Shown: piece after piece, positions 4,964 to 55,036 of the stretch
How the letters are laid out: every line of letters starts with the position of its first letter
Position numbering within the stretch: the first letter of the stretch is position 1
Source of the DNA: Desulfofustis sp. PB-SRB1
GTDB lineage: Bacteria; Desulfobacterota; Desulfobulbia; Desulfobulbales; Desulfocapsaceae
DNA length: 64,000 bases
Reading direction: 5' to 3'
Assembly: GCA_016722945.1 (NCBI GenBank)
Contig: JAEQMT010000010.1
Span: forward strand, 1-64,000
Notes under the pieces: model-generated
Database searches by the model: none
Told to the model about the DNA's origin: nothing
The model's input: only the letters and a program-made list of their open reading frames with translations
Made by a program: the position numbers and the translations under genes

Positions 4964-5325
4964 GTACGCCGGGATAAGCCGGCAAAGGATAGTGGGTGCA
5001 AGTCCCACACAGATGAAGGTGTAGCCTACCAATCTGGCCCCGAGTCATGCGCGGTGGTTCGTGAGGACTAACGTGAAGTGTTGACAGGGGTGGCTATAGG
5101 CTGGGTATTGAGCTGCGAAATTTAAGTTTGAGGTGTCGATGTTGTTAAGCGAAACAGAAGACCATGCTGGTGCGAGCGTTATCGGGCGAGTTCGTATTCC
5201 AGGCCTTACGCAGTCGGAGACCCCATGCATGTGGCGAAGTCCTTTGTGCGGAACCCGGGAGATCTCGCAAACGTCCAGGTATCGTACCCGGACCGATTCC
5301 TGAAAACGCAAGTTGAACGAGGAAT

Positions 5326-12347: not shown

Positions 12348-12480
12348 GATGGCTTCGTAAAAACTCCAATTACGGTCATTACGGAGTTGAATCGAAATCC
12401 ATAATTATTTGAAATTACTGGATTCCCGCTTTCGCGGGAATGACGTTAGCAAGCAAATTCAAGGTTTTTACGATTTCATC
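12348..12480. repeat. GATG/CATC element type A, copy 1 (short form)
   Basis: The 133-bp non-coding element has ends GATGGCTTCGTAAAAA and, read inward from the right, GATGAAATCGTAAAA. The perfect 6-bp direct repeat ATACCT flanks it (12342-12347 and 12481-12486). The interior carries the hairpin GATTCCCGC-TTTC-GCGGGAAT. See the copies at 20663, 36939, 38970, 39235 and 54898. Confidence 0.85.
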
Positions 12481-20662: not shown

Positions 20663-20822
20663 GATGGCTTCGTAAAAAACCCAATTACGGTCATTGTGGA
20701 GTTGAATCGAAATCAATAATCATTTGGAATTACTGGATTCCCGCTGCAGCCTGTCCTTGAGTGTTGTTATCGAGGGCGGGAATGACGTTAGCAAGCAAAT
20801 TCAAGGTTTTTACGAGTCCATC
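20663..20822. repeat. GATG/CATC element type A, copy 2 (long form)
   Basis: The 160-bp element has ends GATGGCTTCGTAAAAAA and GATGGACTCGTAAAAA (inward), flanked by the perfect hexamer GACAGT (20657-20662 and 20823-20828). The central GATTCCCGC/GGCGGGAAT hairpin holds a longer loop (about 27 nt more) than copy 1, ending in GTGTTGTTATCGAG. The right-hand hexamer contributes the GTG start of the next gene. Confidence 0.85.
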
Positions 20823-36938: not shown

Positions 36939-37097
36939 AATGCTCTCGTAAAAAGTCGAATTTGCTTGCTAACCTCATTCCCGCCCTCGATAACAACACT
37001 CAAGGGCTTGCTGCAGCGGAAATCCAGTGATTTCAAATGATTATGGATTTCGATTCAACTCCACAATGACCGTAATTGGTATTTTTACGACGCCATC
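36939..37097. repeat. GATG/CATC element type A, copy 3 (long form, reversed)
   Basis: The 159-bp element lies opposite to copy 2 and matches it in the long central loop. The left end is AATGCTCTCGTAAAAA (first G changed to A) and the right end read inward is GATGGCGTCGTAAAAA. The flanking hexamers GAAGAA and AAAGAA differ at one base. It sits between the ytoQ promoter and the AarF-like gene. Confidence 0.8.
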
Positions 37098-37187: not shown

Positions 37188-38852
37188 ATGCTTAATTTCA
37201 CCGACCCGCATGCCCTCTTAGAGCGGCTGCACGATGACGGCGACGCTTCCGTTGCTGAGCAGATCGACACCTTTGCCCGGACGCTGGGTGAGGAGCAGTT
37301 TCGCCGCTTTGCCGCATCGCAGCTGGTGAAGCTGGCCCGCCCGGAACAGGCGGTTCCGGCAGGCTTGACTCATTTTGCCCCGCTTATCTACGATGGTATC
37401 GAGTTTTTTCTGGCCCGGATCAACTCCAGGCGACTCACATCGGCCATTGTTGCCCAGGTGCGGTTGGATCCCGCGGCCGGGGCGGGGGAGCGGCTGCTTG
37501 TGCTTGCTTACGAGTTTCCTACCCTGCATAAACTTGCCCAGATTATCGCTCGTCATCCCGGCCTCGACCCGGCCGTCAAAACCTGGTTAATTCCCCTTGA
37601 ATCCGGGGTGGCTCGCTCCGATCCGGAACCGATAAAGGCAAAAATCAAAAAGCTGGCTGATCAATCAGGCTATGATTGTACCTTTAGTGAAGAGATCATG
37701 GACATTGCCGAGGCCAGCGTTGCGCAGGTGGTTCCGGTAGTCTTGTCAAAACGGAATTGCTCAGAGCGGTTCATCGGGGTGGCAAAAACGCTCAAACCAG
37801 GCGTTGCCGAACAGTTGCACGAAGAGTTGGCGATTATGGCCGAGGCGGCAGCTCATTTCAGCAGCAGGCGCGCCCTATACGGTCTTCGCAGCCTGGAACT
37901 GGGCTCGCTGTTTGCTGAGGTTCGCGTTGATCTCATCCGGGAGGTTGATCTTCGTGCCGAACAGCGGAACCTCGATGCTGCCGTCCGCCTCTATGAGAAG
38001 GTATCAGGGGTCGAGGTGCCGCGCCGCTATGGTCTCTGCAATGAGTCGGTAACCACGATGAGCTTTGTTGCAGGGGTAAAGCTTCCCGATCTGAAACTGC
38101 CGGACAGCGCCCGGCAGATGGTTGCCCGGCAGGTGTTTGCGGGTATTATCTGCACGCCTCTGTTTGCCCGTGAGGATATCGCCCTGTTTCATGGCGACCC
38201 CCATGCCGGCAATATTGTCGCCCGCTATGATGAGGCCGCGGGCCAAACCTGCATCGGCCTGCTGGACTGGACATTGGCCGGCCGGCTCGACCGGCGCACT
38301 CGCCTTCATCTCATGGATCTGCTGTGCGGGGTGGCGGCCCGCGACGGTGGGAGAATCGGCCGGGTGGTGGGGGAACTGGCAAGAGAGTCGATTTCGACCG
38401 CGAAGATAAGGGGCCATCTTCAGAACCTGCTGCATGACGAATCATTTGGTTCGATGGGGCCGCTTACCCGTGGATTTCATATTCTGGAGCAGCTTTCCAT
38501 GGAGGGTGTGGTTTTTACCAGTGAGTTGATTTTGTTTCGCAAGAGTTTTTTTACCCTGGAGGGGGTATTGGCCGACCTCTCTCCCGGTTTCGACATGGAT
38601 GCGGCCATGGCAAGCTATCTGGGCGAGTTGCTGGTCCGGGAGGCGGGATACCGCATGACCACCGCCCTGATGCCCGGTTTTGATGTGGCTTCTCTGTATC
38701 CCTCCATGCTGTCCAATCGTGATCTGGCAGGTCTCTCCTGGGTGCAGCTTGTCGAGCATTGGCAGCGCACCGCGCAGGTCTCGTGGTCCTTGGTTGATGT
38801 GTATCACCGTGCCGTTGCCGCTTTTTTTGGAATGAGCGATGTCGGCAGGTGA
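37188..38852 (+). CDS. ABC1/AarF/UbiB-family protein kinase-like
   Basis: The 554-residue protein of the UbiB/AarF family has the kinase-like catalytic loop FHGDPHAGNIV (~328) and metal-binding LLDWTLAGRLDRR, plus VDLIREVDLRAEQRNLDA. The N-terminal ~180 residues are unlike standard UbiB and form a helical extension. UbiB proteins act as atypical ATPases in quinone biosynthesis or lipid handling. There is no typical C-terminal membrane helix pair, so localisation is uncertain. The start at ATG 37188 has only a weak ribosome site. Confidence 0.75.
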   Translation: MLNFTDPHALLERLHDDGDASVAEQIDTFARTLGEEQFRRFAASQLVKLARPEQAVPAGLTHFAPLIYDGIEFFLARINSRRLTSAIVAQVRLDPAAGAGERLLVLAYEFPTLHKLAQIIARHPGLDPAVKTWLIPLESGVARSDPEPIKAKIKKLADQSGYDCTFSEEIMDIAEASVAQVVPVVLSKRNCSERFIGVAKTLKPGVAEQLHEELAIMAEAAAHFSSRRALYGLRSLELGSLFAEVRVDLIREVDLRAEQRNLDAAVRLYEKVSGVEVPRRYGLCNESVTTMSFVAGVKLPDLKLPDSARQMVARQVFAGIICTPLFAREDIALFHGDPHAGNIVARYDEAAGQTCIGLLDWTLAGRLDRRTRLHLMDLLCGVAARDGGRIGRVVGELARESISTAKIRGHLQNLLHDESFGSMGPLTRGFHILEQLSMEGVVFTSELILFRKSFFTLEGVLADLSPGFDMDAAMASYLGELLVREAGYRMTTALMPGFDVASLYPSMLSNRDLAGLSWVQLVEHWQRTAQVSWSLVDVYHRAVAAFFGMSDVGR

Positions 38853-38969
38853 TCGCCCGGAGACAAGAAGATGATTACCTTTTGGATATATTAGGGTATC
38901 CTTCGGGAGAATAATTGTCTGATACAATCCTAAACAGTTACATTTGAAAATAAGGCACATGGCATATAT

Positions 38970-39101
38970 GATGAACTCGTAAAAACCTCAAAATTGCTTG
39001 CTGCCGTCATTCCCGCGAAAGCGGGAATCCAGTTATTTCATTAATTATGTATGTCGGGTCAATTCCGGTATGACGGGAATATGGGTTTTTACGACGCCAT
39101 C
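38970..39101. repeat. GATG/CATC element type A (reversed), first unit of the A-B-A array
   Basis: The 132-bp element has left end GATGAACTCGTAAAAA, right end (inward) GATGGCGTCGTAAAAA, and the interior hairpin ATTCCCGC-GAAA-GCGGGAAT. The left flank hexamer is ATATAT and the right is ATAAAT. It is the first of three contiguous elements. Confidence 0.86.
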
Positions 39102-39107
39102 ATAAAT

Positions 39108-39228
39108 GATGCACTCGTAAAAACCCTAAATCCTAACTTTGATGGGCAACATATAGAGTGTTTGATTCTCAAGTATATACAACAAGTAGTGTAAATGTAG
39201 TTTGTCGAGGACTTTTTACGAGAGCATC
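39108..39228. repeat. GATG/CATC element type B, middle unit of the A-B-A array
   Basis: The 121-bp element has the same ends (GATGCACTCGTAAAAA and GATGCTCTCGTAAAAA inward) but an unrelated interior (CCTAAATCCTAACTTTGATG ... AGTGTTTGATTCTCAAG). It is flanked on both sides by ATAAAT (39102-39107 and 39229-39234). Its only other copy is at 54771, inverted. Confidence 0.86.
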
Positions 39229-39234
39229 ATAAAT

Positions 39235-39367
39235 GATGAACTCGTAAAAACCTCAAAATTGCTCGCTACCGTCATTCCCGCGAAAGCGGGAATCCAGTGA
39301 TTTCAATTAATTATGAATGTCAGGTCAGCTCCGTTATGACTGGAATATGGGTTTTTACGAAAGCATC
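39235..39367. repeat. GATG/CATC element type A (reversed), third unit of the A-B-A array
   Basis: The 133-bp element is nearly identical to the first unit, with ends GATGAACTCGTAAAAA and GATGCTTTCGTAAAAA. ATAAAT follows at 39368-39373. The array fills the whole gap between the AarF-like gene and sdhA and ends 20 bp before the sdhA ribosome site. Confidence 0.86.
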
Positions 39368-39399
39368 ATAAATAATAGTTAGAAAAACAGGAGGAATGT

Positions 39400-41136
39400 G
39401 TGATTCATAACTTTGATACAGTAATTGTCGGCTCCGGCGGCGCTGGGCTCTATGCCGCGCTGGAGGCCAGCGCCCGCAGCAAAACGGCGGTGCTTTCCAA
39501 GCTCTATCCGATCCGCAGTCATACCGGCGCCGCCCAGGGCGGCATCAGCGCCGCACTGGGCAACGTGGAAGAGGACAGCGCCCAGTGGCATGCCTTTGAT
39601 ACGGTAAAGGGCGGCGACTATCTGGTTGACCAGCAGGCCGCCATGATCCTCACCGAAGAGGCAATTCAGGCGGTGTATGATCTGGAAAACAGAGGCTTGC
39701 CTTTCAACCGTACGCCCGAAGGGCGTATCGATCAGCGTCGTTTCGGCGGCCATACCAGAAATTTTGGTGAGGGCCCGGTGCGCCGGGCGTGCTACGCCGC
39801 CGATCGTACCGGCCATATGATTCTGCAGACGCTGTATCAGCAGTGCATAAAAAATGAGGTCTCCTTCTTTGATGAGTTTCAGGTGGTGGATGTCATCATC
39901 GAGGATGGCAGCTGCCGCGGGGTGGTGGTGGTTGAGCTTGCCACCGGCGAGATGCATATCTTCGCGGCCAAGGCGGTGCTGTTTGCCACCGGTGGATTCG
40001 GCCGCATTTTCAAGATTACCTCAAATGCCTACGCCAATACCGGTGACGGTCCGGCGGTGTGTGCCCGCCGCGGTATCCCGCTGGAGGATATGGAGTTTTA
40101 TCAGTTTCATCCCACCGGCATCATGGGCTTGGGGATTTTAATCTCCGAGGCGGTGCGCGGCGAGGGCGGTATTCTGCGCAACCGTGACGGCGAGCGGTTC
40201 ATGGAGCGTTACTCGCCGACCCTGCTCGATCTGGCGCCACGCGATATCGTCGCCCGCTCGATCCTCACCGAGGTAAGAGCCGGCCAGGGCATTCGCGGAG
40301 ACCGCAGGATTGATGACTATGTCCATCTCGATGCCACCCATCTCGGCAAAGAGGTTCTTGACGCAAAGCTTCCCGATATCAGCGGCTTCTGCCGAACCTA
40401 TCTGGGCATCGACCCGATTGATGCGCCCATTCCGGTGTTGCCCACCGCTCACTACGCCATGGGCGGCATCCCCACCGATGTGCACGGCCGCGTAGTGATC
40501 GATCGGGAGGGCACCATTATCGATGGTCTCTACGCCGCCGGTGAATGCGCCTGCGTCTCGGTACACGGTGCCAACCGGCTGGGCACCAATAGTCTGCTCG
40601 ATCTGATTGTCTTTGGTCGCCGGGCCGGCCAGCATATCGCCGAATATGTCAAGGATGCGCCGGCGCCGCGGCCGGTCGCGGATGCTGATGAGTTTGCCAG
40701 AGCGTGGATCGACAGGTTGTTGGACGGCGCCGATGGGCCGCATGGCGGCGCCATTACCGATGAAATGCAGGTAACCATGATGGAGAAGGTGGGCATCTAT
40801 CGCAACAAGGCCGATATGAGCGTTGCCGTTGACCAAATCCAGGAGCTTCGCAGTCGGTACCAGACGGTGCGTGTTCAGGATACCGGCAGTAGATTCAATA
40901 CTGATCTGCTGGAGTTGATCGAACTGGGCAACTTGCTCGATCTGTCCCTGGTCACTGCCGTTTCCGCTCTGCACCGGGAGGAAAGCAGAGGCGCCCACAG
41001 CCGGGAAGACTTTCCCGAGCGCGACGATGATACCTGGTTGAAACACACCCTGGCCTATCTTGAAGGCGACGAAGTTCGTCTTGACTATAAAGCGGTGGAT
41101 ACCTCTATCTGGGAACCCAAACCACGCACGTATTAG
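39400..41136 (+). CDS. sdhA: Succinate dehydrogenase/fumarate reductase flavoprotein subunit
   Basis: The 578-residue FAD subunit has the N-terminal dinucleotide motif [15 protein letters not shown], the FAD-attachment histidine context [20 protein letters not shown], the substrate loop FHPTGI, the active-site Arg region ERFMERYSP and [14 protein letters not shown]. It oxidises succinate (or reduces fumarate). GTG 39400 follows AGGAGGAAT. It is followed by sdhB 14 bp on. No membrane-anchor gene (sdhC/sdhD) lies upstream: the element array is there instead. Confidence 0.93.
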
Positions 41137-54737: not shown

Positions 54738-54770
54738 AAGACGTAATGGTTTTAGTACCCTGTAAAGTTT

Positions 54771-54891
54771 GATGCTCTCGTAAAAAGTCCTCGACAAACC
54801 ACATTTACACTACTTGTTGCATATACTTGAGAATCAAACACTCTATATGTTGCCCATCAAGGTTAGGATTTAGGGTTTTTACGAGTGCATC
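54771..54891. repeat. GATG/CATC element type B, first unit of the B-A array (inverted)
   Basis: The 121-bp element is the same as the one at 39108, read the other way (ends GATGCTCTCGTAAAAA and GATGCACTCGTAAAAA). It is flanked on both sides by the hexamer AAGTTT (54765-54770 and 54892-54897). It lies 34 bp after the glycosyltransferase stop. Confidence 0.86.
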
Positions 54892-54897
54892 AAGTTT

Positions 54898-55030
54898 GAT
54901 GGCGTCGTAAAAACATCTATCACTGCCATGGTGGAGCTGACCCGGAATTTATAACAGCCTGAAATTACTGGATTCCCGCTTTCGCGGGAATGACGAAAAC
55001 AAGTAACATCGGGGTTTTTACGAATTCATC
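54898..55030. repeat. GATG/CATC element type A, second unit of the B-A array
   Basis: The 133-bp short-form element has ends GATGGCGTCGTAAAAA and GATGAATTCGTAAAAA and the GATTCCCGC-TTTC-GCGGGAAT hairpin. AAGTTT follows at 55031-55036 and precedes at 54892-54897. Confidence 0.86.
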
Positions 55031-55036
55031 AAGTTT

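Follow-up and report, generated by a model that had tools for sequence, protein, structure and literature searches.

The array of three MITEs that precedes an sdhA-like gene in Desulfofustis sp. PB-SRB1 is very probably a stack, built by serial and independent transposition of different copies into the target duplication of a resident element. It lies in the window, which here means the whole stretch of 64,000 nucleotides that was analysed. The elements of the array are MITEs; their ends read GATGNNNTCGTAAAAA, and they duplicate 6 or 7 bp of target. The preliminary description of this DNA had offered two routes to the array, and one of them, in which a new copy inserts exactly at the duplication of a resident, is supported by joints that are as long as the duplication, by joints that match the outer hexamers in many genomes, and by empty sites.

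Architecture and setting of the array

The array and its neighbouring genes are composed of the following features.

37188–38852, + strand, gene with an ABC1 kinase domain, 5′ of the array
38964–38969, outer left target hexamer ATATAT, a single mismatch to ATAAAT, read from the sequence
38970–39101, + strand, MITE A, 132 bp, ends GATGAACTCGTAAAAACC and GGTTTTTACGACGCCATC
39102–39107, joint hexamer ATAAAT between A and B, read from the sequence
39108–39228, + strand, MITE B, 121 bp, assigned from its sequence and BLAST class
39229–39234, joint hexamer ATAAAT between B and A′, read from the sequence
39235–39367, + strand, MITE A′, 133 bp, a young copy by sequence comparison
39368–39373, outer right target hexamer ATAAAT, read from the sequence
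39400–41136, + strand, sdhA-like flavoprotein gene, 3′ of the array

Re-reading of the sequence reproduced the element coordinates, the A-B-A′ order and the hexamer joints as originally claimed. The same hexamer had been described at every junction; ATAAAT does occupy three of them, but the first carries ATATAT. The array had also been said to fill the whole region upstream of sdhA, which proved too broad: it takes up 410 of the 547 bp between the stop of the ABC1-kinase-domain gene (38852) and the start of sdhA (39400), leaving 111 bp of array-free DNA upstream and 26 bp downstream, and the 26-bp piece between the array and sdhA contains the sequence AGGAGG. A, B and A′ each begin with GATG and end with CATC as inverted repeats, and folding of single-stranded DNA through these inverted ends gave z values of −3.88, −3.55 and −4.75, respectively. 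No genes were assigned in A, B and A′, an Rfam search at gathering thresholds found no family at the array, and a promoter scan of 38840–39420 returned 1 site against a shuffle mean of 2.0, which is no evidence for a promoter. The sdhA-like DNA of relatives aligns from about 39390–39400 on, with nothing alignable upstream of sdhA; the genus of the window genome is represented in the collection by one genome.

Two further features were recorded in the window. Class A elements contain the hairpin ATTCCCGCGAAAGCGGGAAT, which at 39009–39028 was scored as terminator-like on the + strand. At 4999–5223 (+), a group II intron RNA domain was detected (Rfam RF02005, 170 bits).

The element family and its target duplication

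With up to three mismatches allowed, the window holds 20 occurrences of the end pattern, compared with a shuffle mean of 1.14, and the junction pattern has no match in a reversed-pattern control, so the array is not a product of chance. Across the 4.69-Mb genome, the end pattern with up to two mismatches has 196 matches on one strand and 201 on the other (4 and 5 in the reversed control), and 154 elements were called in 1.63 Mb of this genome, comprising fetched stretches and the window. The inverted ends of the family are about 16 bp long, and the commonest lengths in the first set of 106 elements were 160 bp (34 elements) and 133 bp (32 elements). Exact duplications flank 38 of 90 clean solo elements, a sample from which solos beside another end or too near the end of a stretch were excluded; 26 duplications are of 6 bp and 12 of 7 bp. 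In the first set, the exact duplications of 62 solos were of 6 bp (20), 7 bp (10) and 5 bp (1), with none of 8 bp, and allowing one mismatch raised the 6-bp class from 20 to 30. The family thus shows what characterizes MITEs, namely short length, many copies, inverted ends, a 6- or 7-bp target duplication and a partner with the same ends. The window itself holds three solo examples.

12348–12480, solo MITE of 133 bp, ATACCT on both sides
20663–20822, solo MITE of 160 bp, class C reference, GACAGT on both sides
36939–37097, solo MITE of 159 bp

Spacing of neighbours and identity of the joints

Among the 154 elements of the window genome, the gaps between neighbours measure 6 bp in 11 cases and 7 bp in six, and gaps of 0–5 or 8–37 bp do not occur in the 1.63 Mb covered. 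The remaining gaps of up to 300 bp are 38, 40, 40, 41, 117 and 151 bp, of which the four at 38–41 bp reflect a miscalled end and are really joints of 6 or 7 bp (the fourth at L344, C39:98715-98752). A second array in the window, at 54765–55036, has the same hexamer, AAGTTT, at its joint and on both outer sides.

54765–54770, outer left hexamer AAGTTT
54771–54891, − strand, class B MITE
54892–54897, joint AAGTTT
54898–55030, − strand, class A MITE, 77% identical to A
55031–55036, outer right hexamer AAGTTT

A scan of genome contigs for two abutting exact ends with 0–12 bp between them, a requirement that favours young arrays, yielded 110 stretches. Of the 80 titles listed for these 110, most name Desulfobacterales, Desulfobacteraceae, Desulfobulbaceae, Deltaproteobacteria or Syntrophales, and some read just "Proteobacteria" or "bacterium". 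Together with three loci of the window genome and the window, and with L031–L033 left out as copies of the window, these stretches gave 116 joints, 113 of which are 6 bp (98) or 7 bp (15) long, with one each of 2, 4 and 9 bp. For the 6-bp joints with a partner end of at most two mismatches (56 on the left and 57 on the right of the 98), the joint equals the outer left hexamer in 35 of 56 and the outer right hexamer in 41 of 57. It could be argued that only a few A/T-rich hexamers serve as targets and that matching joints are coincidental, and the hexamers are indeed A/T-rich with a consensus. However, shuffling of the outer hexamers gives a mean of just 1.61 matches on either side, and the spike of gaps at 6–7 bp with none at 8–37 bp speaks against coincidence as well, which makes this explanation highly improbable.

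In 33 arrays both sides are readable; all three hexamers are identical in 16, and at least one outer hexamer matches the joint in 30. These arrays also bear on whether two neighbouring MITEs could travel together through their outermost ends and carry the old joint along. Both outer ends (with up to two mismatches) are present in the 33 arrays and are usable in principle, but the equal outer hexamers differing from the joint that such a move predicts were seen in none of the 33, and joint travel deserves hardly any credence. The preliminary description had asked for other arrays in which junction hexamers match and had held that unrelated internal hexamers would make the array before sdhA coincidental. 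Other arrays were found and their junctions mostly match, though not always; unrelated internal hexamers do occur as a minority, in 3 of the 33 two-sided cases and at 4 of 17 joints in the window genome. At each of the other 13, all within the 1.63 Mb covered, the joint is identical to the outer sequence on one side or both. Those matching neither side are L170, two in L333, and L335; the mismatch at L170 arises from reading its joint as 7 bp, and a 6-bp reading (AATTAT) agrees with the left side. Decay or recombination could account for unmatched joints.

Several observations on individual arrays may be added. At L110 (286–319) the joint is just 2 bp (TT), as against 6–7 bp in 113 of 116, possibly through deletion. 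L101 and L103 are 95.5% identical over 4.3 kb, and both joints are AAATTT. The sequence at an ATCCAT joint is identical at G000:C4:1611-1648 and C43:787029-787066, perhaps because the stretch is duplicated or misassembled. At L051, L065, L068, L072, L075, L079, L093 and L097, short contigs have a MITE joint no more than about 150 bases from their end, suggesting that stacked MITEs break short-read assemblies. Viral contigs scanned with the end pattern gave 19 stretches and added nothing to the joint evidence.

Units as distinct copies

The units of the array were compared with each other and with copies elsewhere. Its A-B-A label stands by BLAST class, but A and A′ are only 90.2% identical. 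Over the element, A′ is 100% identical to copies at about C6:46330-46462 and C6:148626 and 99% identical to two others, and the copy at C6:46330-46462 is itself a member of another array. The nearest copy of A, among 32 class A elements compared, also lies elsewhere (L178, 94%). Since A and A′ are only about 90% alike and A′ is identical to copies elsewhere, the unit was not duplicated. In the window genome, nine of 13 abutting pairs join different named classes, two place class A beside class A in the same orientation, and two have one unclassified member.

These data bear directly on the second route of the preliminary description, in which tandem duplication or slippage copies an element plus one hexamer as a unit and so produces A-hexamer-B-hexamer-A. 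Such copying would fit the ATAAAT shared by the window joints and the right outer hexamer, as well as the two pairs of class A next to class A. A precedent is provided by the CMITE tandem arrays of Acropora corals, which are piggyBac-like, have a TTAA target and consist of full-size head-to-tail units, and which were attributed to slippage on the ground of close similarity among units and among spacers (PMC2872659). The coral and window arrays are alike in that full-size MITEs are arrayed head-to-tail; they differ in that the coral units are highly similar, whereas the window units are distinct copies. The closer relationship of A′ to copies elsewhere than to A and the nine mixed pairs contradict unit copying, as do the single target copies at empty sites, and this origin is very unlikely.

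A whole-genome search with A′ returned at least 51 matches (40 of 231 first-look candidates were scored). Among the 30 matches listed as loci, seven, including A′ of the window, are at least 95.5% identical to A′, a cut-off for young copies that was set after looking at the data. Six of these seven young copies abut another element, compared with seven of the 23 others (Fisher p 0.025). Each of the six abutting young copies, among the matches listed, is bordered on its two sides by one and the same hexamer or heptamer; on the far side of its neighbour, that sequence recurs in two of the six and a different one stands in four. Such far-side differences are as expected if the neighbour is the older element.

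Empty sites in congeneric genomes

Comparison of congeneric genomes revealed an empty site at both of the two loci tested. In the related genome G028, the array L288 has AAATTAT at three places around two units; in G039, which belongs to the same genus as G028, the matching flanks contain no element and a single AAATAAT (TG-AAATAAT-GACA). A short extra stretch after the L288 array in G028 may be an old remnant. The second array of G028, L289, has AAAGAT three times with units of 132 and 162 bp, and the corresponding site of G039 reads TCT-GACGAT-GAAAGTG with no unit. A third genome, G052, carries at the L289 site a different insert of about 130 bp without GATG ends. Compared with the array joints, the single target copy is off by one base at L288 and by two bases at L289.

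Target preference and a probable mechanism of stacking

Solo elements prefer a symmetric target, TY-A(W)..(W)T-RA. In 76 half-sites, A occupies the first duplicated base (so T the last) in 66, and A or T follows in 62. Outside the duplication, T stands at position −2 in 42 of 76 (p 8e-7) and a pyrimidine at −1 in 60 of 76 (p 2e-7), the latter being T in 37 and C in 23. TC half-sites number 12 of 76 against 4.7 expected. Insertion of an element duplicates 6 or 7 bp of target, and because the element starts with GA and ends with TC, the preferred target would be rebuilt on both sides as TC-hexamer-GA. A new copy could then enter at the same hexamer with the same stagger, on either side and any number of times; with TC-hexamer-GA rebuilt at each insertion, the hexamer would be reusable without loss, and all joints would come out alike. 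The earlier expectation that independent insertions should give different target repeats fails when the target is the resident's own duplication.

The transposase may, with less assurance, be drawn to the resident ends as well. In a target model trained on 25 solo targets, 4.2% of the insertion weight available in intergenic DNA falls on sites adjacent to elements, and the weight of these sites is roughly doubled by the element's own dinucleotides (10302 versus 4555). This model predicts 2.2–4.4 stacked joints, fewer than the 13 found in 1.25 Mb (Poisson 0.0007 to 6e-7), so the regenerated target alone seems insufficient, which suggests that resident ends may attract the transposase. Serial insertion might accordingly proceed mainly through transposase bound at resident ends and not through the regenerated target, a version that appears possible, if short of probable. 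The excess of stacked joints favours it, as does the tendency of young A′-like copies, among the 30 matches listed, to abut an older element. Against it, the model was trained on just 25 sites and the sample is non-random, the stretches having been chosen partly around end matches; moreover, a place able to bear one insertion may bear a second, and reused sites may be favoured by selection.

A candidate source of transposase

A DDE_Tnp_1 search of the window genome located three copies of a 1931-bp element with the same 16-bp ends as the MITEs.

C1:87979-89909, 1931-bp element with a 614-aa reading frame, no matching duplication
C1:173890-175820, 1931-bp element, no matching duplication
C6:11628-13558, 1931-bp element, ATAATT on both sides

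The other two copies match the 614-aa frame over its whole length at 97.4 and 98.5%. The 614-aa transposase contains DDE_Tnp_1_6, DUF772 and DDE_Tnp_1 domains, the first two above the gathering cut-off, and we take the pairing of DUF772 with DDE_Tnp_1_6 to be a mark of the IS1182 family. IS1182 (NF033551) is also the best-scoring NCBIfam family for the transposase (135.5 bits, E 2.5e-39), yet this score lies below the equivalog cut-off of 270. Over their first 23–25 bp, A, A′ and B are 84–91% identical to the right end of the 1931-bp element. Judging from the shared ends and from the same duplication length in one of the three copies, the 1931-bp element with its IS1182-like transposase is the likely mover of the MITEs. 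A search of the stretches fetched from other genomes, which are small parts of them, did not find the transposase, and none was confirmed in viral contigs.

Other candidates were rejected. An IS1634-family element with a 563-aa transposase was first taken as the partner because it is flanked by GATG ends with ATCCAT on both sides; it has its own ends, CTTGGGTTTGCGGTC, and sits as an insertion within a MITE of about 160 bp, and in a copy alignment five other full copies lack GATG ends. The long end pairs L112 and L335 enclose ordinary genes, and none of those at the other fetched loci yielded a plausible partner. The IS1634-family transposase gene is itself interrupted in some copies, listed below, by inserts of roughly 3.2 kb at differing positions; an Rfam search of three loci flanking these copies, which cover parts of the inserts, found no family.

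G000:C43:133463-138376, interrupted IS1634-family copy
C1:549205-554120, interrupted IS1634-family copy
C47:132957-137874, interrupted IS1634-family copy
C61:292648-300791, interrupted IS1634-family copy

Relation to known systems and significance

MITE multimers of plants and insects share TA or TAA duplications, and IS30 and IS911 insert next to their own ends. Both resemble the stacks described here in that insertion occurs at or beside the duplication or end of a resident. They differ in belonging to transposase families other than the one presumed for the window MITEs, and the 2–3-bp duplications of the plant and insect multimers cannot test the identity of hexamers. Among prokaryotic elements, ISMba11, an IS1634-related MITE of Methanosarcina barkeri (247 bp, 23 copies, inverted repeats of 20, duplication of 6), is likewise a short IS-derived element with inverted ends and a 6-bp duplication; it is of another family, and the part of its description consulted makes no mention of stacking (PMC3852290). 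The Chunjie MITE of Geobacter uraniireducens resembles the window MITEs by description alone, being many-copy and mostly intergenic with inverted ends and direct repeats; it is 178–235 bp long, and stacking is not mentioned in the portion seen of the review that describes it (PMC10969869). The titles and abstract openings listed by literature searches contained no report of hexamer-matched MITE stacks in bacteria, which is weak evidence of absence.

A duplication of 6–7 bp makes the identity of every joint readable, and sequence alone then reveals in which order stacked insertions arrived and where they came from, something that duplications of 2 bp do not permit. The arrays constitute a natural test of target choice by a transposase whose own ends contribute to building the target. 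In addition, they place several hairpin-forming sequences in one intergenic region, here before sdhA, and an effect on expression is possible. A bolder reading, conceivable but less likely than not, is that the ends of the MITEs and of their IS1182-like partner rebuild the target on both sides, that the transposase is also recruited by resident ends, and that most growth of the family comes from stacking at the scars of its own earlier insertions. If this is true, stacking would be a self-sheltering strategy, in which old copies would serve as safe, renewable landing pads across Desulfobacterota.
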